Below are positions 2,944 through 11,315 of a DNA stretch of 11,315 bases, piece by piece (the first letter of the stretch is position 1; every line of letters starts with the position of its first letter). The stretch is from an uncultured Ruminococcus sp. (lineage in GTDB: Bacteria > Bacillota > Clostridia > Oscillospirales > Ruminococcaceae). The position numbers and the translations under genes were made by a program. The stretch covers positions 1-11,315 of the forward strand of contig CAMOEP010000048.1 of the NCBI GenBank assembly GCA_946612185.1, written 5' to 3'. Under the pieces are notes generated by a model. The model made no database searches. It was not told the origin of the DNA and saw only the letters and a program-made list of their open reading frames with translations.

Positions 2944-2994
2944 AAAAAAAAGACCTGCCCCAGGATTCAGTCGGAATCCCTGGCAGGTCTTTTT
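2944..2994. terminator. Bidirectional rho-independent terminator between convergent operons
   Basis: AGACCTGCC (2951-2959) pairs perfectly with GGCAGGTCT (2982-2990); after a small internal loop, GGATT (2963-2967) pairs with AATCC (2975-2979). On the + strand the stem runs into T at 2990-2994. On the - strand it runs into a T-run (A at 2944-2951 on the + strand). It begins 7 bp past the stop of the type II thioesterase gene, so it mainly ends the long - strand operon. It also stops transcription from the + strand endonuclease V operon. Confidence 0.9.
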
Positions 2995-3000
2995 GATATG

Positions 3001-3711
3001 TCAATTAAGCCCCAGTTTTTCGCAGATAAGCTTGCATACTTCTTCTTTGTGCTGGGTATAGTAGAAATGTCCGCCGCTGAATTTGACTACTTCGCAGCTT
3101 TTGTCGGTATACCTTCCCCAGCCGCTCATGTCAGCATTTTTCAACATTGTATCCTCAGTGCCGTATATCGCCGTGATATCACAGCCGAACTGAACCTGCT
3201 CCGGAGTTGCGCTGTACTTCTCAGCCATGCGCACATCATTGCAGAGTATCCGGTTAAGCTGTGCGGCAAGTTCCGCATCGGGTATCACCGGCGAGGAAGT
3301 CATACTGTTACGGTCGAAAAACTCAGTTATCTCCTGGTCAGTCACCTGGTCGATATCTCCGAAACAGTGCAGGTTCTCGTCTGGAGCATTCTTCCCGGAC
3401 AGGAACATATGAACCGGCGCAGGTAAGCCCTTTTCCCGTATCTGTCTTACAAATTCCGTGGCAAGGACTGTTCCCATGCTGTGACCGAATACGGCGTAGT
3501 CACCGTCTTTCAGAAGTGCTGTCAGGTCTTCGTTCTTGTCAAAAAGGTCACTGATGCAGGACTTTATATCATGCAGCATCGGCTCGGCAGAACGTGTGAA
3601 CCGACCTGAAAGTTCCATTGTGACAACGTTCAGGTCTTTGGGGAGAAATCGCTTGAATGATGCGTAACTCTTTGCTGAACCGCCTGCATGAGGGAAAAAA
3701 AACAGTGTCAT
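3001..3711 (-). CDS. Type II (external) thioesterase, alpha/beta hydrolase
   Basis: This 236-residue protein matches type II thioesterases of polyketide and nonribosomal peptide clusters in length and motifs. It opens with the typical strand and oxyanion segment FFFPHAGGSAKSY (residues 4-16). It then has the nucleophile elbow GHSMG (Ser78), the acid in YGTED (Asp187) and the base in GGHFYY (His215), a complete triad. Such enzymes hydrolyse wrong or stalled acyl groups from carrier-protein phosphopantetheine and sometimes release products. The start is ATG 3711, with GAGGAG at 3721-3716 just upstream; a TTG at 3723 is in frame but overlaps that site. The ATG is 1 bp past the acyl carrier protein stop, so the two are translated together. 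It is the last gene before the operon terminator. Function within this pathway is inferred from family and position. Confidence 0.9.
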   Translation of the reverse strand: MTLFFFPHAGGSAKSYASFKRFLPKDLNVVTMELSGRFTRSAEPMLHDIKSCISDLFDKNEDLTALLKDGDYAVFGHSMGTVLATEFVRQIREKGLPAPVHMFLSGKNAPDENLHCFGDIDQVTDQEITEFFDRNSMTSSPVIPDAELAAQLNRILCNDVRMAEKYSATPEQVQFGCDITAIYGTEDTMLKNADMSGWGRYTDKSCEVVKFSGGHFYYTQHKEEVCKLICEKLGLN

Positions 3712-3712
3712 A

Positions 3713-3964
3713 TTACTCCTCAACAGTTGTTCCCTTTTCGTTGAGCAGGTCGAAGAACTCGCCTACTCTGCTGATAGATGCTACCAGTGAAAGTGCAACG
3801 TTCAGCTTGTATGTATCAGTGATATGTGATCCAAGACCGAAAAGTCCCAGAGAATCAAGGTACAGATCATCAAAAACGTCAGTATCCTTTGTGATCTCCT
3901 CAGCGTCAACGCCTACATAGTCGGAAACGACCTGTCTGAATTCGTTCCAATCAAGATTATTCAT
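3713..3964 (-). CDS. Discrete acyl carrier protein
   Basis: An 83-residue acidic protein with the four-helix carrier-protein pattern. The phosphopantetheine attachment motif is DLYLDSLGLFGL with Ser38 in DSL, the usual position for a stand-alone carrier protein of about 80 residues. The serine must be modified by a phosphopantetheinyl transferase, which is not in the window. The gene starts 2 bp after the ligase stop, with AAGGAG about 10 nt upstream, and ends 1 bp before the type II thioesterase start. Placement between the ligase and the thioesterase suggests that it carries the acyl chain for this pathway rather than serving general fatty acid synthesis, where acpP normally lies with fab genes. 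It could also be a peptidyl-type carrier, since the family does not separate cleanly at this length. Confidence 0.92.
   Translation of the reverse strand: MNNLDWNEFRQVVSDYVGVDAEEITKDTDVFDDLYLDSLGLFGLGSHITDTYKLNVALSLVASISRVGEFFDLLNEKGTTVEE
3716..3721 (-). promoter_or_regulatory. Ribosome binding site deciding thioesterase start
   Basis: GAGGAG on the - strand forms the last two sense codons (Glu-Glu) of the acyl carrier protein gene and lies 4 nt before ATG 3711. This fixes the thioesterase start at the ATG rather than the in-frame TTG at 3723, and indicates coupling of the two genes. Confidence 0.75.
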
Positions 3965-3966
3965 AA

Positions 3967-5526
3967 TTATTTATACTCCTTTTTTCTGAGATATTTGAAC
4001 TGTATCTTGCCGATGTCCTTGGGTATCTCCTCAACGAGAACTACCTTGTCCGGCACTTTATAAGCGGAGAGTTTTCCGTCGAAATAGCGTGCCAGTTCGC
4101 CTCTTGTTACCTTTTCATCGCCCTTGGGCTGAATGTAGGCGACTATCTGCTGACCGATTACCGGATGTGGCTCGTCAGTTACGGCTGCGGCTGCTATCTT
4201 GGGGTGAGTGAGCAGGCAGGCTTCAACTTCCTCAGCGTGAACGAGGTTTCCGCCACGCTTGATTATACGCTTGCTGCGTCCTGCGAAACGTACTATACCA
4301 CCGGGCAGTTTGTTTACCAGGTCACCTGTACAGAACCATCTTCTGCCCTGATCGTCGGTGAGTATCTTCTCGGCGGACAGTTCCGGGTTGCCGAAATACT
4401 CAGTGATAACGCCGTCGGTGTAAACGCACAGTTCACCTGTTTCACCCTCGGCAACGTCGTTCTTGTCAGCGTCGATAACACGGTAGTCGGTGAAGTAAAG
4501 CTTCTTGAAGTCGCTGGGATCGGAGTCGCCGTCCTTTGCGGAATCCCATACCACCATAGTGCAAGTCTCGGAAGAACCGATGATATTGATGACCCGGATA
4601 TTCAGCTTCTTGACGAATGTATCAGCTATCTCCTTGGGCAGAACTTCGCCGGCAAAGTAGCAGATACGAACGCTTGAAAGGTCATACTTCTCGAAATCAG
4701 GAGTTGAAAGAAGTACCTTTGCAAGGGTGGAAGTAAGCTGAATGATATTTACCTTGTACTTCTGGACAGTCTCCAGGAATGAGATAGGATTGAACTGGGG
4801 CTGATACATTACGCTTCCGCCCTTGAGTGCCATTTGCAGACCCATTCCAAATCCGCCCTGATGATAGAGGGTCATGCCCAGCATCATAACGTCGTCGGAC
4901 TTGAATTCCAGATAATCGCCCATATCCTTCTGAGTGGAAAGGAATCCGCCGGAGGGAACGGCAAGTATCTTGGGAGTGCCGGTGCTTCCGGAAGTGCAGG
5001 CAAGGGACATGGTGTGCAGGTACTCAGGCTGATATATCTCGCAGTCAGCCTCGCCGTAGTCAGCAGCAAACTTCTCAGCACTGATGTAGCTGTCGCCGTC
5101 CGGAACAGCGCTCTCAGGTGCAAAGCATACCACCTTTTCAAGCTGGAACTCGCCGGGTACAAGCTGACTTACTGCACCTATGATGTGGTTAGTTCTGTAC
5201 TTTTCAGTCACGAACAGCATCTTAACAGTAGTTGCCGGGATAAGCCTGGAAAGTTCCAGTGAACCACTCTGGGGGTCGATCGGAACAGGCTGAGCGCCTA
5301 TTCTTACGGCTGACCAGAATGCGATGTACCATTCAATACTGTTAGGCATTACCAAACCAACTTTGTCGTCCACGCCGATACCCAGCTTTTTCAGTGCTGA
5401 GCCGAAAACTGCGGTTTTCTCCATGAACTGGCTGTAGGTCAGTGTATTCTCATCTATCCTCAGAAGAACCTTGTCCGGTGTCTCCTGAGCGTATTTGCTG
5501 TAGTAATCAAAGAAATTATTGCTCAT
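3967..5526 (-). CDS. Acyl/aryl-AMP ligase (ANL superfamily)
   Basis: This 519-residue stand-alone adenylating enzyme contains the standard motifs in order. The P-loop is TSGSTGTPK (178-186), GSSET is at 317-321, CTGDL with ribose-binding Asp402 is at 399-403, the hinge is GRSKRIIKRGGN (416-427), and the C-terminal GKI contains catalytic Lys507. It should activate a carboxylic acid with ATP and transfer it to CoA or to the carrier-protein thiol. There is no fused carrier or condensation domain; the free carrier protein encoded 2 bp downstream is a natural acceptor, though this is inference. Substrate cannot be read reliably; long-chain fatty acid, short acid and aryl acid all remain possible. 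ATG 5526 overlaps the hydrolase stop by 4 bp (ATGA), with AGGAGA upstream. Confidence 0.92.
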   Translation of the reverse strand: MSNNFFDYYSKYAQETPDKVLLRIDENTLTYSQFMEKTAVFGSALKKLGIGVDDKVGLVMPNSIEWYIAFWSAVRIGAQPVPIDPQSGSLELSRLIPATTVKMLFVTEKYRTNHIIGAVSQLVPGEFQLEKVVCFAPESAVPDGDSYISAEKFAADYGEADCEIYQPEYLHTMSLACTSGSTGTPKILAVPSGGFLSTQKDMGDYLEFKSDDVMMLGMTLYHQGGFGMGLQMALKGGSVMYQPQFNPISFLETVQKYKVNIIQLTSTLAKVLLSTPDFEKYDLSSVRICYFAGEVLPKEIADTFVKKLNIRVINIIGSSETCTMVVWDSAKDGDSDPSDFKKLYFTDYRVIDADKNDVAEGETGELCVYTDGVITEYFGNPELSAEKILTDDQGRRWFCTGDLVNKLPGGIVRFAGRSKRIIKRGGNLVHAEEVEACLLTHPKIAAAAVTDEPHPVIGQQIVAYIQPKGDEKVTRGELARYFDGKLSAYKVPDKVVLVEEIPKDIGKIQFKYLRKKEYK

Positions 5527-6647
5527 TTGGTTTCTCCTGTAAGTCTCTGTGCGATGAAATCAGCGGTGATGTGCTTTACCCAGTGGAACTGCTCGCCTAC
5601 AGGCATTGCGTGCATGATAGTTTCCTCGGAAACGTATGCAGGTCTTTCGGTGACTTCAAGTCTCTCCTTGTAGCCTGTTGCCTTGCTGTAGAGGATATCG
5701 TTTGCCTCGTGGGTCATCCAGTTATCATAGTCGCTGTGTACAAGGAAGAAGTCGGAGCTGAGAGTTCCTTCGGAGAGAACGTTCATTGACTCCATGTAGT
5801 CGTCGTTTGTCTGGTATGAAGTCCACTTGCCCTTCTTCATCCAGATCGGAACGGAGTCAAGCTTGCAGTAGCAGATCATCAGCGGGAACAGCGCTACGCA
5901 ACACTTAACACCGGGGTTCTTTGCTGTTGCTCTGATAGCGTAGCCGCCGCCCATGCAAAGACCAAAGTTAGCCATACGGCTGCTGTCAAGTTCGCTGCGG
6001 CTGTCGATGAACTTGTAGATGCCCTCGAAAGCGGCTTCCAGTTCGTCACCGCCGCACTTTACGTTATTCCAGATAACAGCGCCGCCTGTACCGGGCATAT
6101 CAGGAGTGATGACTGCCACGCCACGCTCATTCAGGGGCATTGCCAGCATATCAAGTTCCTCCTTGCAGCTACCGATGCCGGAGTAGGTAATAGCAATGGG
6201 GTAGCTTTCCTTGCTGCCGTCGTCGGGGTAGTGGATATAAGCCGGAAGCTTGCCGAAAGCAGTATCTATCTCAACGTACTCTATCTTATTATCACAAAGT
6301 TCGGTATACTTTCTGTAACTGTCAGCCAGGTTATTATAAATGGAAACCTTCTGCTCTAAGTCCTGGATATTTACCATATAGCAGGCGTACCAGCACTGTG
6401 CGACCATTTTTGCGTATGCTCTTGCGGAAATACGGTTTCCCTTAGCTTCATTCTGGTCACGAAGCTCTGCGTAATGAGCGATCTTCTTTTCCCATTCACC
6501 AAGCCATACAGCCTGTATCTTCTTACCGCTCATAACGTCGATCTCGTCCACTCTTTTCAGGACGTACTCAGTATCAAAAGGGTCACTTCCGTAAAGCATC
6601 GACCTTGTGACCACCGGGTTAAGAAGTTCTCTGATCGACCATTTCAT
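5523..6647 (-). CDS. Ayg1/FrsA-like alpha/beta hydrolase with Cys nucleophile
   Basis: A 374-residue protein with a helical N-terminal half (about 1-120) followed by an alpha/beta hydrolase core, the layout of the FrsA/DUF1100 group. That group includes the fungal polyketide-shortening hydrolase Ayg1 and 2,6-dihydroxypseudooxynicotine hydrolase, a C-C bond hydrolase. The nucleophile elbow reads GLCMGG, so Cys231 stands where Ser is usual. Candidate triad partners are Asp308 (HSDYD) and His355 (EQFHW), with His346 and His359 as alternatives. The oxyanion-side TYSGIGSCKEE segment is present at 154-164. Cys nucleophiles occur in dienelactone hydrolases and suit acyl transfer, lactonisation or C-C cleavage as well as hydrolysis. 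ATG 6647 follows a GAGAGGA site 8 nt upstream; the gene begins 15 bp after the tautomerase and overlaps the ligase by 4 bp. The reaction is inferred, not established. Confidence 0.8.
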   Translation of the reverse strand: MKWSIRELLNPVVTRSMLYGSDPFDTEYVLKRVDEIDVMSGKKIQAVWLGEWEKKIAHYAELRDQNEAKGNRISARAYAKMVAQCWYACYMVNIQDLEQKVSIYNNLADSYRKYTELCDNKIEYVEIDTAFGKLPAYIHYPDDGSKESYPIAITYSGIGSCKEELDMLAMPLNERGVAVITPDMPGTGGAVIWNNVKCGGDELEAAFEGIYKFIDSRSELDSSRMANFGLCMGGGYAIRATAKNPGVKCCVALFPLMICYCKLDSVPIWMKKGKWTSYQTNDDYMESMNVLSEGTLSSDFFLVHSDYDNWMTHEANDILYSKATGYKERLEVTERPAYVSEETIMHAMPVGEQFHWVKHITADFIAQRLTGETK

Positions 6648-6662
6648 AATATCATTCCTCTC

Positions 6663-7016
6663 TTATTCTGTATAGCGCCAGGCGCTCTGTCTGTCCATTT
6701 CCGTAAACTGCATATATATGCGGTAAGGATCGACCTTTGTGTGCTTCTGGATAACTGCCAGCATAGTATCTGCAAACAGCTTCAGGAATCCGCTTTTATC
6801 GCTGGCAAATTCCTGTGGCATAACGTAGCGGAATTCCGAGAAAAACACGGTATCCTCAGAATTGTTCATGTACATATAGCAATCGTCCAGCATGACCATT
6901 ACTGCCGGCAGGGGCTTTTTCAGAAGCTTTGCCATTTCCTCTGCAACTTCATTCAGGAATTCCTTTTTGGAAAGTTCGTCCATTTTGTAGTTGGTTTTCA
7001 TTTGTGCGATCGGCAT
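6663..7016 (-). CDS. MIF-family tautomerase-like protein
   Basis: This 117-residue protein matches the macrophage migration inhibitory factor (MIF) fold in length (114-115 in MIF) and layout. It starts MPI, so removal of Met would expose an N-terminal catalytic Pro. KKPLPAVMVML (33-43) aligns with the GKPPQYIAVHV stretch of MIF, with Lys34 at the catalytic Lys32 position. DPYRIYMQFTEM (96-107) aligns with the SPDRVYINYYDM region, with Tyr101 matching Tyr95 and Gln103 replacing Asn97, and Trp113 matches Trp108. The MIF CxxC motif is absent. The family uses Pro as a general base for keto-enol or double-bond isomerisation. In this operon it could tautomerise a beta-keto or unsaturated intermediate. 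The start is ATG 7016 with GAGAGGA 9 nt upstream; a longer frame to 7100 runs back into the ketosynthase gene and would bury the Pro. Function is inferred from alignment by eye. Confidence 0.8.
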   Translation of the reverse strand: MPIAQMKTNYKMDELSKKEFLNEVAEEMAKLLKKPLPAVMVMLDDCYMYMNNSEDTVFFSEFRYVMPQEFASDKSGFLKLFADTMLAVIQKHTKVDPYRIYMQFTEMDRQSAWRYTE

Positions 7017-7025
7017 TAATTGTCG

Positions 7026-7032
7026 TCCTCTC
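7026..7032 (-). promoter_or_regulatory. Ribosome binding site deciding tautomerase start
   Basis: GAGAGGA on the - strand begins directly after the ketosynthase stop codon (7035-7033) and sits 9 nt before ATG 7016. It fixes the start so that Pro is residue 2, the position needed for a tautomerase. A nearly identical site (AGAGAGGA) precedes the hydrolase gene. Confidence 0.75.
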
Positions 7033-8241
7033 TTAATTGTATTTTCTGAAAACGAGTGTTGCATCATGACCACCGAAGCCGAATGCGTTTGATACAGCAA
7101 CGGTGATATCCTTTTTCAGTGCGGTATTGGGTATGTAGTTCAGGTCAAGTTCCGGGTCAGGCTCGTCGAAGTGAACTGTTGGGGGAAGTATACCTGTCTC
7201 GATAGCCTTGACGCAGGCGATGCCCTCAAGAACTCCGCAGCCTGCAAGGGTGTGACCGATAGCTGCCTTTATGGAAGAAACCGGGATATCGTATGCCTTC
7301 TCACCAAAAACCTGCTTTATCGCCATTGTCTCATAAAGGTCATTGAGGGTAGTGGAAGTGCCATGGGCATTGATGTAACCCACTTCCTCCGGAGCGATAC
7401 CAGCATCTTCCAGAGCGCATCTCATTGAGTACGCCATACCAGCGCCGTCTGCCTGGGGAGCAGTAAGACTGCTTGCCTCACAGCTAATGGAAGCACCGGC
7501 AAGTTCGCAGTATATCTTAGCTTCTCTTGCCTTAGCGTGTTCCTCTGATTCAAGAACGACAGTACCGCCGCCCTCGCCCATGATGAAGCCGTCACGGTTC
7601 TTGGTGAAAGGTCGGCTTGCCGTGTCAGGGTCGGGATTTACGGACATTGCAAGAAGCTGATTGAAGCCGTCAAGTACCGCATCGTTTACCACATAGGAAA
7701 GTCCGCCCACGATGATCATATCGCAAAGCCCGGACTGGATAAGATGCTTGCCCAGCGCAAGAGCGTAACCGGAAGAAGCGCAGGCTGTACTCATATTGAA
7801 CGATGGACCTGTGATATTGTGCTTAATGGCTATCATTGCCGGTATTTCACTCTGCATACGTTTCAGTGTGATGTGAGACTTGTTCTCCTGCTCAACGCCC
7901 TCGTAGGTATTGTCTGCCAGACCGTAGATAATGCCAATCCTTGAACGGTCAAGGGAAGCAAAATCAGCGCCGCAGTCCTCGATAGCTTCGCCGGCGGACG
8001 CAAGTCCCATTCTTACGGCTTTGGGGGTTGCGCTGAGCATACGCTTTTTCCAGTACTTTGAAGCGACCTGCTCAAATGAATCGTCCACCTCGGCTGCAAC
8101 TGTCGTATCATGATTTTCAGCCGGAACACGGGTGATAGTCCGCATACCGCTTTTGCCTTCGATCAGCGAATTCCAGTAATCCGGGACATTGTTTCCCAGA
8201 GCTGTAACTGCGCCAAGACCTGTTATAACTACTTTTTTCAT
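7033..8241 (-). CDS. FabF-like beta-ketoacyl synthase
   Basis: A 402-residue condensing enzyme of FabF (KAS II)/type II ketosynthase length. Active-site residues are all present: Cys154 in STACASSG, His293 in NAHGTSTTLND and His330 in KAAIGHTLAG. The GFGGHDATLVF C-terminal segment is also typical. It should take an acyl chain on Cys154 and extend it with decarboxylated malonyl carrier protein; an intact Cys argues against a decarboxylase-only role. No chain-length factor or acyltransferase gene is adjacent, so it may borrow malonyl-ACP from fatty acid synthesis. It starts at ATG 8241 with an AGAGG site about 10 nt upstream, 36 bp after the dehydrogenase stop, the widest gap in the operon. It sits away from any fabD/fabG/fabZ genes and with tailoring enzymes, which points to a secondary pathway rather than housekeeping lipid synthesis. 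Confidence 0.93.
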   Translation of the reverse strand: MKKVVITGLGAVTALGNNVPDYWNSLIEGKSGMRTITRVPAENHDTTVAAEVDDSFEQVASKYWKKRMLSATPKAVRMGLASAGEAIEDCGADFASLDRSRIGIIYGLADNTYEGVEQENKSHITLKRMQSEIPAMIAIKHNITGPSFNMSTACASSGYALALGKHLIQSGLCDMIIVGGLSYVVNDAVLDGFNQLLAMSVNPDPDTASRPFTKNRDGFIMGEGGGTVVLESEEHAKAREAKIYCELAGASISCEASSLTAPQADGAGMAYSMRCALEDAGIAPEEVGYINAHGTSTTLNDLYETMAIKQVFGEKAYDIPVSSIKAAIGHTLAGCGVLEGIACVKAIETGILPPTVHFDEPDPELDLNYIPNTALKKDITVAVSNAFGFGGHDATLVFRKYN

Positions 8242-8264
8242 ACCACTATACCTCTTTAATCACT

Positions 8265-8280
8265 TGACCCTGCGGGGTCA
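8265..8280 (-). repeat. Small hairpin between dehydrogenase and ketosynthase genes
   Basis: TGACCC (8265-8270) and GGGTCA (8275-8280) are perfect 6-bp inverted repeats with a 4-nt loop, spanning the dehydrogenase stop codon. No T-run follows, so it is not a terminator. It lies in the only intergenic gap over 20 bp within the operon and could tune mRNA stability or translation, but it may be chance. Confidence 0.35.
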
Positions 8281-9396
8281 TGAATAGTATTTTTCAAATA
8301 GATCTGTATTATATTTATAAGACGCAAAACCGGTCTTTTCATAGAGGTGGTCAAGTGCGGATATAAGATTTTCTGCACCGTATTTTCTGTACATTTCCGG
8401 CAGAGTATCGGCTGTGCCGAGAGTACTGCTGACTGCTTCGAGGAGTACATCGCTGTCGATACCAGCCTCATCGAGTGCGAAAGCAGTCTCGCTAAGGATA
8501 TATGCAGCCATATAAAGCGGTGCATTATCGCAGTTTTCCGCAGTTTTCTGCTCCTGGCTGCTGATAAATCCGTGGAAACTCCTGGGACTGTCCGGGCAGC
8601 CCTGACTGCGCCAAAGCTGCATTTTCTCACAGCCGTATCCAAGAAGCTGCTTATTGCGCTCCAGCCGGAAATTTGTCTGGTTTTCAGCCATAAGTCCAAG
8701 TCCTACGCTGTCAAGTATATCAAATACACCTGCGACGGTATACATTTTTTCAAGGGAAGCTGAAAGCGCCGGAACGGACGTGTGAAAATAATCACAAAGA
8801 CAGATGCCGTGCGAAACCATTGCGGAAAGTATCTGGTTCAGGTACACATGGTAGTCTCCGGAAAAGCAGATATATCTGCGTCCGCAGCCGGTAATCAGGC
8901 TTTCTGCAATTTTCAGCGCATCTTCGGAGGTATCCGCTAAAAGGTTAAGTTCCACGAATTCCGCCAGTTTTACCGGATAGAAAAAATGCATCCCCATGCA
9001 GCGCTGAGTATCAGGAACGCCCTCAAATACCTTTTCGATGTTCAGCGAGGAAGTGTTCGTCATCAGCAGGCAATTACCGGAAACTATATCCGCAATATCC
9101 CTGAAAAGCGAATTCTTAGCCTCCAGGTTCTCCGAAATAGTCTCTATAACTGCATCGCAGCCAGCAAGTTCAGCCGCATCACAAGTGAACCGGAACGCTG
9201 ATCTCTTGGCTTCATACTCCTCCTGAGTCAGCTTTTTTCTACGAAGCTGCTTGTCAAGAGTCTTTACGACCGCAGCAGTATACTCCTCTGCACCAGAGCG
9301 GACAAGCACCGTAAATCCGGCATTTTTCAGGTTATCGAAGAAAAAGGAGAAAATGTCCTTTCCCATTTTTCCGTACCCCGTGATCCCGATATTCAT
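8278..9396 (-). CDS. 3-hydroxyacyl-CoA dehydrogenase-like protein, probable NADP type
   Basis: A 372-residue protein with an N-terminal Rossmann fold (GITGYGKMG, 4-12) followed by 3-hydroxyacyl-CoA dehydrogenase C-terminal domains. The catalytic set aligns: Ser116 in TNTSSL, His137 and Glu149 in GMHFFYPVKLAEFVEL, and Asn187 in VYLNQIL. It is longer than the roughly 280-residue short-chain enzymes, and residues about 290-372 look like a second copy of the C-terminal domain, as in the FadB-type large subunit. After the second strand (FTVLVRSG), Arg33-Ser34 replaces the usual acidic residue that selects NAD, which hints at NADPH use and a reductive role. ATG 9396 is 1 bp after the crotonase stop with a GGGGGG ribosome site; an in-frame start at 9459 would add 21 residues ahead of the Rossmann strand. 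Here it could reduce beta-ketoacyl thioesters in place of a FabG-type reductase (inference). Confidence 0.88.
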   Translation of the reverse strand: MNIGITGYGKMGKDIFSFFFDNLKNAGFTVLVRSGAEEYTAAVVKTLDKQLRRKKLTQEEYEAKRSAFRFTCDAAELAGCDAVIETISENLEAKNSLFRDIADIVSGNCLLMTNTSSLNIEKVFEGVPDTQRCMGMHFFYPVKLAEFVELNLLADTSEDALKIAESLITGCGRRYICFSGDYHVYLNQILSAMVSHGICLCDYFHTSVPALSASLEKMYTVAGVFDILDSVGLGLMAENQTNFRLERNKQLLGYGCEKMQLWRSQGCPDSPRSFHGFISSQEQKTAENCDNAPLYMAAYILSETAFALDEAGIDSDVLLEAVSSTLGTADTLPEMYRKYGAENLISALDHLYEKTGFASYKYNTDLFEKYYS

Positions 9397-9397
9397 G

Positions 9398-10090
9398 TCA
9401 GTCCCCCCTGTTCTTGTAAAGCTGAATATATCTGCGGTACTCCGCAGGCGAAAATTCACCGCAGCTTTCAGAGATAAAGTCTATCAGCGAATACGCCTCG
9501 GCAAGTCCCTGCTTTTTGTCGGTGAGAATATCTCCCCAGCCCATCTCACAGGCTTCCTCGGAAGGGAAAAGTCTGCCGGTCATAACCATCTCATAGGCGT
9601 TCTTCATGCCGCAAAGTTCGATATTCCGGGCAATTCCGCCAAGTCCGGGGAGTATGCCGAAGGTGGACTCCGGCTGACCTATCCTTGCACCCTTTTCGAC
9701 GATCCTGTAGTGGCAGTTCAGAGCGATCTCGCTGCCTGAACCGATACAGAATCCGGTAACTACGCTCACCACCGGGAACGGCAGTTCACGCAGGAAAGTG
9801 AAGTGGCGCTTCTGTCTAATATGGCTTTCCGGAAGTTTACCTGTGGTATCGTCGTATACTTCCTTTGCAGAGCGCTCCTCAAGTGCGTCAACATCAGCAC
9901 CTACGCAGAAATGCCTTCCACTGCCACTTATTATCATGCCCCTGATGCCGCCACGTCCGGCACGCATCTGAACCTCCTCCATGACCGTTTCAAATTCCTC
10001 ATGGAACTGCGTGGTCATAAGGTTATTTTTCGGGGCATTCATCATAACGGTGAGTATTCCGTTTTCCTCATTAAGCAGGATATCACTCAT
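9398..10090 (-). CDS. Enoyl-CoA hydratase/isomerase (crotonase family), complete
   Basis: A 230-residue crotonase, slightly short of the usual 255-260. The first oxyanion-hole segment is SGSGRHFCVGADVDAL (55-70) and the second is GFCIGSGSEIAL (113-124). Glu121 and Glu141 (in GQPE) sit exactly 20 apart, like Glu144 and Glu164 of rat mitochondrial enoyl-CoA hydratase, so a hydratase/dehydratase reaction is plausible. In this operon it would dehydrate 3-hydroxyacyl thioesters or hydrate enoyl ones, partner to the dehydrogenase encoded 1 bp downstream. AGGAGG (10104-10099) lies 8 nt before ATG 10090 and 5 nt before a tandem ATG at 10093; either start is possible and they differ by one Met. The gene overlaps the preceding small gene by 8 bp. 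The C-terminus ends soon after a short helix (EFSPAEYRRYIQLYK), lacking part of the usual C-terminal helices. Confidence 0.9.
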   Translation of the reverse strand: MSDILLNEENGILTVMMNAPKNNLMTTQFHEEFETVMEEVQMRAGRGGIRGMIISGSGRHFCVGADVDALEERSAKEVYDDTTGKLPESHIRQKRHFTFLRELPFPVVSVVTGFCIGSGSEIALNCHYRIVEKGARIGQPESTFGILPGLGGIARNIELCGMKNAYEMVMTGRLFPSEEACEMGWGDILTDKKQGLAEAYSLIDFISESCGEFSPAEYRRYIQLYKNRGD

Positions 10091-10502
10091 CATGCACACC
10101 TCCTGCGATGTTTGCGATAAGCCGGTAAAATGCCCTTGATTCAGCATCAAGAACGTCTTCGCTGCTGCCGTTTCTTGCAGTCACGAAGCAGCTTGTTATC
10201 TCCCTGACCTGAAATGCAGACTTGTCCTTGAACAGGTTTTCTGCGTATTCACCGGTATTATCAGCAGGTATCACGATGTCGAAGTACTTTGCAATATCCG
10301 CATCGGGTTCATCAGACGCAAGCGCTGTGACATATGGCACATCAGCAAAGAAACTGCGCACCTGTGCTTCGTCACCTGCCTGGATACTTCCGCTGCCGTG
10401 TACAATAAGCAAGCACGGTTCGCCAAGCTCTGCACCGATGATCTGCGAAAGCGTATCAACTCTGCTTACTTCTGTAAATAATTCTTTAATTATGATCTTC
10501 AT
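10083..10502 (-). CDS. Small protein, possible degenerate crotonase-like subunit
   Basis: A 139-residue protein I do not recognise with certainty. It has a central alternating strand/helix stretch. PYVTALASDEPDADIAKYFDIVI (56-78) lines up by eye with the crotonase segment PVIAAV.G.A.GGG.ELAL.CDIVI: Asp69 falls at the catalytic Glu position and Asp75 at the conserved Asp six residues on, but the oxyanion-hole glycines are replaced. The end (AESRAFYRLIAN) resembles a C-terminal crotonase helix. It may be an inactive partner of the adjacent crotonases, but this is a weak inference. ATG 10502 lies inside the end of the hotdog thioesterase gene (17-bp overlap); a GTG at 10511 would add three residues. 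Its stop overlaps the next crotonase start by 8 bp. The tight overlap on both sides shows that it is a real, coupled gene. Confidence 0.7.
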   Translation of the reverse strand: MKIIIKELFTEVSRVDTLSQIIGAELGEPCLLIVHGSGSIQAGDEAQVRSFFADVPYVTALASDEPDADIAKYFDIVIPADNTGEYAENLFKDKSAFQVREITSCFVTARNGSSEDVLDAESRAFYRLIANIAGGVHDE

Positions 10503-10899
10503 CTGTCTCACGCTCTAATATTTCCTTGACCTCATCAGGGATACTGTGAATGACACGCTCATGGCTTACGAAAACGATCCTGCCCTGTATTTTGCAGGAT
10601 AGTACGCCTGTAGCGTCATTTATGATATTATGCTTGCAGACCATAACTTCCCTCTTAGCCGTGAACTCGGACTCGATGCGCACCTCGTCCAGCAGTTTCA
10701 GTTCATGGATATACCTCTGGGAACACTCCATAAGTACCGGGAATATTCCCCTGTCGAGGGTATACTCCATAAGTCCCTTTGATCTGAAAAAGTTCCAGAG
10801 TGCGGCTTCTGCGTACTGTAAGTAAACTGCGTTGTTCACATGACCAAAGGAGTCCAGTTCATAGCCTCTTACGGTCAGATTGTACACACATCTGCTCAT
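10486..10899 (-). CDS. Hotdog-fold acyl thioesterase (4HBT/YbgC type)
   Basis: This 137-residue single hotdog domain has the 4-hydroxybenzoyl-CoA thioesterase/YbgC signature near the N-terminus: YELDSFGHVNNAVYLQYAE, with the catalytic Asp16 and the GHVNN motif (19-23), Glu31 following. Length is typical of the family (about 130-145). Members hydrolyse acyl- or aryl-thioesters of CoA or carrier protein and act as tetramers. The start is ATG 10899, overlapping the crotonase stop by 4 bp (ATGA), with GAGGAGG about 10 nt upstream; an in-frame TTG at 10908 is less likely. It is the second acyl-releasing enzyme of the operon besides the type II thioesterase, so one may release product and the other proofread. 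Which substrate it uses cannot be read from sequence. Confidence 0.9.
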   Translation of the reverse strand: MSRCVYNLTVRGYELDSFGHVNNAVYLQYAEAALWNFFRSKGLMEYTLDRGIFPVLMECSQRYIHELKLLDEVRIESEFTAKREVMVCKHNIINDATGVLSCKIQGRIVFVSHERVIHSIPDEVKEILERETDEDHN

Positions 10900-11315
10900 T
10901 TTCTGCAAGCCTCCTCAAGTGCTGATTCAAATGCTCCGGACGAAGGGTCGGGATCGCCGTCAGATGCCCTGTTCAGGGTATTTACGACAGCATTTATCTG
11001 GGTCACGCTCACTGACGAGACAATATCCTCAGCGAATCTCAGTGCCTCCGGGAGAGAGTCCTTATCCTCGGTAACTTTTGTGACAAGTCCGACAGACAGC
11101 GCCTTATCAGCGGAGAGCATTTCGCCCTGAAGTATCATTTGCAGAGCCTTTTCCCTGCCAACAAGCCGGGAAAGCCGCTCCATGCCGCCCATACCTGGCA
11201 CTACACCGTGCATTATCTCGGTAAGTCCAAGGCGTGCTTTCGGTGAAGCGATGCGGAACTGGCAGCTCATGGCTATTTCCAGTCCGCCTCCGAAGCAGCC
11301 GCCGTTGCCAGCCGC
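10896..11315 (-). CDS. Enoyl-CoA hydratase/isomerase (crotonase family), partial
   Basis: The reading frame runs off the right edge, leaving the last 139 residues. They begin within the second oxyanion segment, AAGNGGCFGGGLEIAMSCQF, whose Glu matches Glu144 of rat enoyl-CoA hydratase. A second Glu lies in LGLTEIMHGVVPGMGG at the Glu164 position, where TE replaces the usual PE. The remainder (MERLSRLVGREKALQMILQGEMLSADKALSVGLVTKV) is a regular crotonase C-terminal region. An ATG at 11270 within the frame falls inside the domain and is not the true start. It overlaps the hotdog thioesterase by 4 bp. Two crotonases flanking this thioesterase and the small gene suggest separate steps, for example dehydration and isomerisation. 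The first half and the operon promoter lie outside the window. Confidence 0.9.
   Translation of the reverse strand, partial: AAGNGGCFGGGLEIAMSCQFRIASPKARLGLTEIMHGVVPGMGGMERLSRLVGREKALQMILQGEMLSADKALSVGLVTKVTEDKDSLPEALRFAEDIVSSVSVTQINAVVNTLNRASDGDPDPSSGAFESALEEACRK

Follow-up and report, generated by a model that had tools for sequence, protein, structure and literature searches.

The 11,315-nucleotide stretch analyzed here, referred to as the window (contig CAMOEP010000048.1 of an uncultured Ruminococcus sp., assembly GCA_946612185.1), carries an operon of eleven genes that we regard, with moderate confidence, as dedicated to biosynthesis along a dissociated, partially reducing polyketide-type route, with a 3-hydroxyacyl-CoA-dehydrogenase-type enzyme and crotonases serving as ketoreductase and dehydratase. 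The product could be a cellulose-associated pigment or lipid. Strict gut anaerobes have yielded few small-molecule pathways, the operon is common in major rumen cellulose degraders, and enzymes of these types are unexpected in carrier-bound synthesis. The genes, from the contig end to the terminator, are as follows:

10896..11315, minus strand: crotonase A (enoyl-CoA hydratase/isomerase), its 5' end cut by the contig end; PF00378 (ECH_1), 4.4e-23; GGGLEIA and GLTE Glu motifs.
10486..10899, minus strand: hot-dog (4HBT/YbgC type) thioesterase; PF13279 (4HBT_2), 3e-18.
10083..10502, minus strand: open reading frame 9 (ORF9), most likely a degenerate crotonase; no Pfam family, and no active-site Glu motifs seen in the alignment.
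9398..10093, minus strand: crotonase B; PF00378, 1.1e-29; Glu motifs GSGSEIA and GQPEST.
8278..9396, minus strand: 3-hydroxyacyl-CoA-dehydrogenase-type reductase; PF02737 (3HCDH_N), 4.3e-33; Rossmann, Ser, His and Asn motifs.
7033..8241, minus strand: FabF-type ketosynthase (KS); ketoacyl-synt N and C domains; Cys-His-His motifs.
6663..7016, minus strand: MIF-family tautomerase; PF01187, 1.5e-4, 22.5 bits (cut-off 22); Met followed by Pro.
5523..6647, minus strand: FrsA/AntI-type alpha/beta hydrolase of 374 residues; FrsA-like, 25.5 bits (cut-off 22); Cys nucleophile motif GLCMGG.
3967..5526, minus strand: AMP-forming acyl ligase (adenylation enzyme); AMP-binding N and C domains; PF00501, 7.2e-60.
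3713..3964, minus strand: acyl carrier protein 2 (ACP2); PF00550 (PP-binding); serine in a DSL motif.
3001..3723, minus strand: type II (proofreading-type) thioesterase; PF00975, 8.1e-33; FGHSMGT motif.
2944..2998, minus strand: intrinsic terminator directly behind the last gene; fold of -30 kcal/mol; possibly active for the opposite strand as well.

All eleven reading frames lie on the minus strand between positions 11315 and 3001; every one except ORF9 matched a Pfam family at its cut-off or above. Four neighboring gene pairs overlap by 4-17 bases at their likely starts and the remaining gaps measure 1-36 bases; a fifth overlap, of 11 bases between ACP2 and the type II thioesterase, would exist if the latter starts at a TTG codon. 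The stem at 2944-2998 has a z value of -6.14, with 0/200 shuffles folding as well. Consensus scans for promoters and terminators gave no excess over shuffles (8 vs. 9.3 and 5 vs. 7.0, respectively), no predicted structure in common with the window terminator appeared behind the operon in relatives L003, L004 and L006, and Rfam had no match in the window, L003 or L018. All eleven genes are under purifying selection, the ratios of nonsynonymous to synonymous substitution against Ruminococcus albus KH2T6, R. albus AR67 and isolate RUI259 ranging from 0.011 to 0.229, with the hydrolase lowest; against L005, a more distant locus, saturation of synonymous sites affected 8 of the 11 genes.

A KS scan of genome contigs yielded 215 relatives, and the best 80 of these 215 loci were kept; the 48 of the 80 with a hydrolase ortholog of more than 50% identity are termed operon loci. 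Gene order and strand of the operon genes found were the same in 48/48 operon loci. The full set of eleven is present in 32, including Ruminococcus flavefaciens FD-1, MA2007, ATCC 19208, YAD2003, SAb67, Y1, ND2009 and YL228 as well as R. albus KH2T6 and AR67. By BLAST, the other 16 lack one to seven genes, which may reflect truncation at contig ends, gene fusions, divergence of ORF9 beyond the reach of BLAST or real absence. A first-pass annotation, made from the sequence letters alone, had proposed an eleven-gene operon acting as a single functional unit, and both propositions are borne out by the co-directional, overlapping or near-abutting genes, the purifying selection, the terminator and the collinearity of the 48 loci.

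The same annotation had expected that genes to the right would be needed to see the whole cluster, and the relatives supply them. Beyond crotonase A they carry ACP1 (46 operon loci) and a FabD-like acyltransferase (AT; 47 operon loci), at positions that would fall past the contig end in the window genome; because relatives have both genes 5' of the eleven, the operon probably comprises 13 genes. Two corrections apply to the annotated inventory of eleven genes with two crotonases: ORF9, left unlabeled there, is most likely a third, degenerate crotonase, and in relatives AT and ACP1 lie further 5'. Dependence on acyl carriers, also proposed then, is supported, ACP2 being present in the window and ACP1 in the relatives. 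Over aligned rows, the window included (as in all motif counts below), the DSL motif is found in 50/50 ACP1 (4 of them Bacteroidales) and 42/42 ACP2 rows, and the Ser motif in 51/51 AT rows. In FabD, an Arg binds the malonyl group. At that position (S+25, taken from alignments) an Arg occurs in 0/51 AT rows; 39/51 have it one residue further on and 12/51 at neither position (8 operon loci and the 4 Bacteroidales). Judging from these residues, malonyl loading by AT is doubtful, because the Arg is not at the FabD position; one alignment placed a gap so that the L003 Arg would match that of FabD. Separately, loci L015, L048 and L009 hold a second, short set of AT, ORF9, crotonase B and KS, to which L009 adds a hydrolase; the assemblies concerned, matched by record prefix, hold operon loci L033, L034 and L032 on other contigs. 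In L032, thioesterase and dehydrogenase stand only 488 bases apart, which leaves no room for crotonase B.

The first-pass annotation had also noted a dehydrogenase and crotonases in place of FabG- and FabZ-type enzymes, an observation that holds across all 13 genes (11 from the window and 2 from relatives): FabG, FabZ, thiolase and acyl-CoA dehydrogenase are the best family of none. The cell's own FabG and FabZ could act on the pathway in trans. The roles assigned to the catalytic motifs of KS, dehydrogenase, crotonases and ACPs are those generally established for these families. Crotonase B retains both Glu motifs in 51/51 rows, and crotonase A shows GGGLEIA in 39/47 and GL.E in 46/47. In the dehydrogenase, NTSS is found in 45/48 rows, HFFYP in 46/48 and YLNQ in 45/48; its C-terminal half is diverged, with no PF00725 match. 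In L026 and L027, ORF9 and crotonase B form one fusion protein; crotonase B is joined to the dehydrogenase, in a FadB-like manner, in L044 and L046.

The operon contains only one KS gene, with the motifs ACAS in 51/53, AHGTST in 53/53 and K...GH in 52/53 rows; outside the operon, KH2T6 and AR67 each have one more KS gene. A tree of 42 KS (midpoint root, with a long-branch warning) places the operon rows in one clade, apart from 23 other FabF-type KS and adjoining four Bacteroidales KS (100/100); 14 operon rows are labeled, and L061, left without a label, brings the operon loci in the tree to fifteen. The only other KS match in the window's own, incomplete genome lies on L083 (G000:C16:1-16261), in an open frame of about 2552-2557 residues accompanied by a 1548-residue frame and proteins of 258 and 233 residues; by eye, this locus may encode a nonribosomal peptide synthetase-polyketide synthase (PKS), a thioesterase and a phosphopantetheinyl transferase (PPTase).

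The hydrolase model (pLDDT 91.3) combines a helical part with an alpha/beta hydrolase fold along its whole length, a predicted fold that is that of polyketide-shortening C-C hydrolases. Its Cys occupies the nucleophile motif in 48/48 rows, and Cys231 is invariant in 41/41 sequences (the window and 40 chosen from 120 homologs listed). Against the PETase model the protein scored 27.2, under that model's cut-off of 28. A tblastn search of plasmids with the hydrolase returned 56 records, the best 20 of 56 at 21.9-32.4% identity. The MIF protein begins with (M)P in 41/48 rows, whereas in the remaining 7 the frame was called from a start further upstream and is longer, MPI falling within the first six letters in 3 of these; its best PDB row had an E value of 0.0057, the query in this search and in that for Rumal_1934 (below) being a 115-residue sequence that lacked the initial Met-Pro. 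In the adenylation domain of LgrA, an Asp holds the amino group of the substrate. The ligase has Gln at this position, so that its substrate is likely, as far as this residue tells, a carboxylic acid without an alpha-amino group, aromatic or not; its best NCBIfam rows are fatty-acid ligases, far under their cut-offs.

From these components we infer a direction, an order of steps, substrates and a product along the following lines. The ligase would load a carboxylic acid without an alpha-amino group onto ACP2, ACP1 would carry the other acyl partner, supplied by AT or by the cell's own FabD, and the KS would condense the two, once or repeatedly. Reduction of the carrier-bound 3-keto group would then fall to the dehydrogenase-type enzyme, and crotonase B, with ORF9 as a probably inactive partner, would dehydrate to an enoyl chain; because these two activities would cover reduction and dehydration, no FabG- or FabZ-type enzyme would be needed. 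Crotonase A might shift or hydrate double bonds, the MIF-like protein might tautomerize a keto/enol or dienol group, and the Cys hydrolase of AntI fold would cut or cyclize the chain and release it; the two thioesterases would act in release or proofreading.

The distribution of the operon bears on what it may be for. A hydrolase ortholog (E below 1e-60) is present in 51/125 genomes of the genus, the own genome included, and missing from G004, G007, G013 and G051, all rated 99% complete; the operon is therefore dispensable. Family-wide, the hydrolase (E <= 1e-30) was found in 10/297 genomes and 5/126 genera, and over 391 genomes of the class the ligase matched the own genome alone at E <= 1e-100. 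R. albus 7 has a MIF gene, Rumal_1934, at 85% identity. [Clostridium] polysaccharolyticum, a cellulolytic rumen species, has the ligase (53%) and the hydrolase (43%), each on a 214617-base contig. A genome of another genus in the family (G674) has a hydrolase 98% identical to that of the window, while identity to others in the window's own genus is not above 77%; ancient transfer, or the way the genera are drawn, may account for this. The assembly that supplies the window as contig C48 is incomplete (433 contigs, completeness 73.7), and this contrast in identity raised the prospect of a mis-binned contig; it is countered by a repeat of ~150 bases that recurs elsewhere in the own genome, which argues that the contig is native. 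This MITE-like repeat (2758-2912) has inverted ends and 29 own-genome matches including itself, several at contig ends; a match was found in 1 of 8 other genomes searched, at 79%. Further along, an endonuclease V gene (1441-2154) has a relative only in R. albus AR67 (73%) among four other genomes searched, and its flanks (197-1444 and 2151-2765) show no Pfam family.

Other readings of the operon were considered. It is rather unlikely that its purpose is an unusual membrane or storage acyl chain, e.g., a polyunsaturated, branched or dicarboxylic fatty acid, with the ligase activating a fatty or branched-chain acid. In its favor are the closeness of the KS to FabF types, the leaning of the ligase towards fatty-acid ligases as described, and a neighboring gene in the distant Bacteroidales locus L052, where relatives of KS, ACP1, AT, dehydrogenase and the crotonases occur: at 329.8 bits it comes close to the cut-off of 360 for TIGR04072, a B12 radical SAM model of lipid biosynthesis. 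However, there is no radical SAM gene among the 13, the operon is dispensable, and we know of no AntI-type hydrolase, MIF protein or type II thioesterase from lipid synthesis.

As a special case of the polyketide-type pathway, the product might be the R. flavefaciens yellow affinity substance or some cellulose-associated polyene related to it, which we consider unlikely; the operon is a concrete candidate for the genetic basis of the R. flavefaciens pigment, left unexplained by the cex cluster of Clostridium thermocellum. R. flavefaciens ATCC 19208, which we take to be the same type strain as DSM 25089, carries the operon (L023), as do FD-1 and six other named isolates, and [C.] polysaccharolyticum has both ligase and hydrolase. 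Yellow affinity substances from R. flavefaciens are the subject of reports cited in an excerpt of PMC2844368, and DSM 25089, a reported pigment maker, has neither a cex-like cluster nor celluxanthenes (PMC12144888). A ligase, an ACP and an alpha/beta hydrolase occur in cex as well. On the other hand, an excerpt of PMC8865330 describes R. albus as lacking yellow pigment, although R. albus 7 has the MIF gene and the operon is present in KH2T6 and AR67. Nor could operon presence be tied to cellulolysis within the genus: because GH48 cellulase is nearly universal (112/125 genomes; 68/68 among genomes with completeness of 90% or more and contamination of 5% or less), such a test has no power, and we set that link aside. 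Finally, no expression data were found in the literature searched: six locus tags around Rumal_1934 did not appear there, and, with transcript evidence in mind, "acyl carrier", "enoyl" and "Rumal_19" are absent from the main text of PMC4300822, and "acyl carrier", "enoyl" and "polyketide" from that of PMC8092306.

A more far-reaching version holds that a FadB-like module with a dead crotonase as partner, carrying out the reductive steps on ACP, defines a new assembly-line class whose aromatic-acid-primed polyene or lactone is the long-sought R. flavefaciens yellow affinity substance, and this we find quite improbable. Some R. albus need phenylacetate or phenylpropanoate to degrade cellulose. 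If this version were true, a starter of that kind would explain the requirement. Induction of the tryptophan operon in R. albus 7 on cellulose, reported in an excerpt of PMC4300822, would be consistent with a tryptophan-derived product, although that paper connects it to tryptophan-rich cellulases. Lastly, a catabolic, beta-oxidation-like breakdown of a ligase-activated aromatic or fatty acid is highly improbable: ligase, hydratases, 3-hydroxyacyl dehydrogenase and thioesterases do form a catabolic set and the fusions mimic FadB, but none of the 13 genes has thiolase or acyl-CoA dehydrogenase as its best family, and the set includes two ACPs, an AT and a KS whose Cys-His-His motifs are intact. 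The first-pass annotation had named an ordinary catabolic operon to the right as its possible refutation; the flanking genes in relatives are AT and ACP rather than thiolase or acyl-CoA dehydrogenase, which does not bear that out.

We therefore return to the partially reducing, polyketide-type pathway and its relation to known systems. No characterized cluster with this gene set was found in the literature searched, which reached few subscription journals, in agreement with the first-pass annotation, which could not match the set to a characterized pathway. FadB/FadJ resembles the operon in joining a crotonase to a 3-hydroxyacyl dehydrogenase, fused in two relatives, but the operon has no thiolase partner and adds ACPs, KS and AT. 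Like type II PKS and fatty acid synthases, the operon has a discrete KS with Cys-His-His motifs and a free ACP, whereas FabG- and FabZ-type genes are not in the cluster. AntI, Ayg1/Wdyg1 and DHPON hydrolases share the predicted fold of the operon hydrolase at 14-18% identity; its nucleophile is Cys, while AntI, Ayg1 and DHPON hydrolases use Ser (Ser256 in Wdyg1).

Related genes also occur in four Bacteroidales loci (L050, L052, L055 and L066), all with KS (46-48% identity), ACP1 (43-47%), AT (21-25%) and dehydrogenase (27-29%), and three with crotonases; the ligase, MIF protein and AntI-type hydrolase were not found by BLAST in these four. L052 adds, by family, B12 radical SAM enzymes and a KSIII of DarB-like type; inspection of L050 by eye suggests the same there. 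Ladderane synthesis involves radical SAM and phytoene-desaturase-like genes, according to an excerpt of PMC2649909, and a ladderane link was rejected, the 13 genes including neither. The cex/faf clusters of C. thermocellum (celluxanthenes, flavoaffinins; also treated in an excerpt of PMC11839114) likewise belong to an anaerobic cellulose degrader and, compared by enzyme type only, cex shares an AMP ligase, a free ACP and an alpha/beta hydrolase with the operon. In contrast, the type I iterative PKS, two KASIII and PPTase of cex (PMC12144888) are absent from the 13 genes.

The aryl polyene (APE) type II PKS offers a further likeness in its discrete KS, two free ACPs and partially reducing chain growth. 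APE clusters include a ligase and a thioesterase. The main text of PMC8358021 uses neither term; an excerpt of that paper presumes one ACP for the starter and one for malonyl. According to excerpts of PMC9582728 and PMC8358021, APE systems employ a KS-chain length factor pair together with a homodimeric KS, a ketoreductase and a dehydratase pair. Unlike APE, with its KS-chain length factor heterodimer, the operon relies on a single KS and combines it with an enzyme of the 3-hydroxyacyl-CoA-dehydrogenase type, crotonases, a MIF protein and an AntI-type hydrolase.

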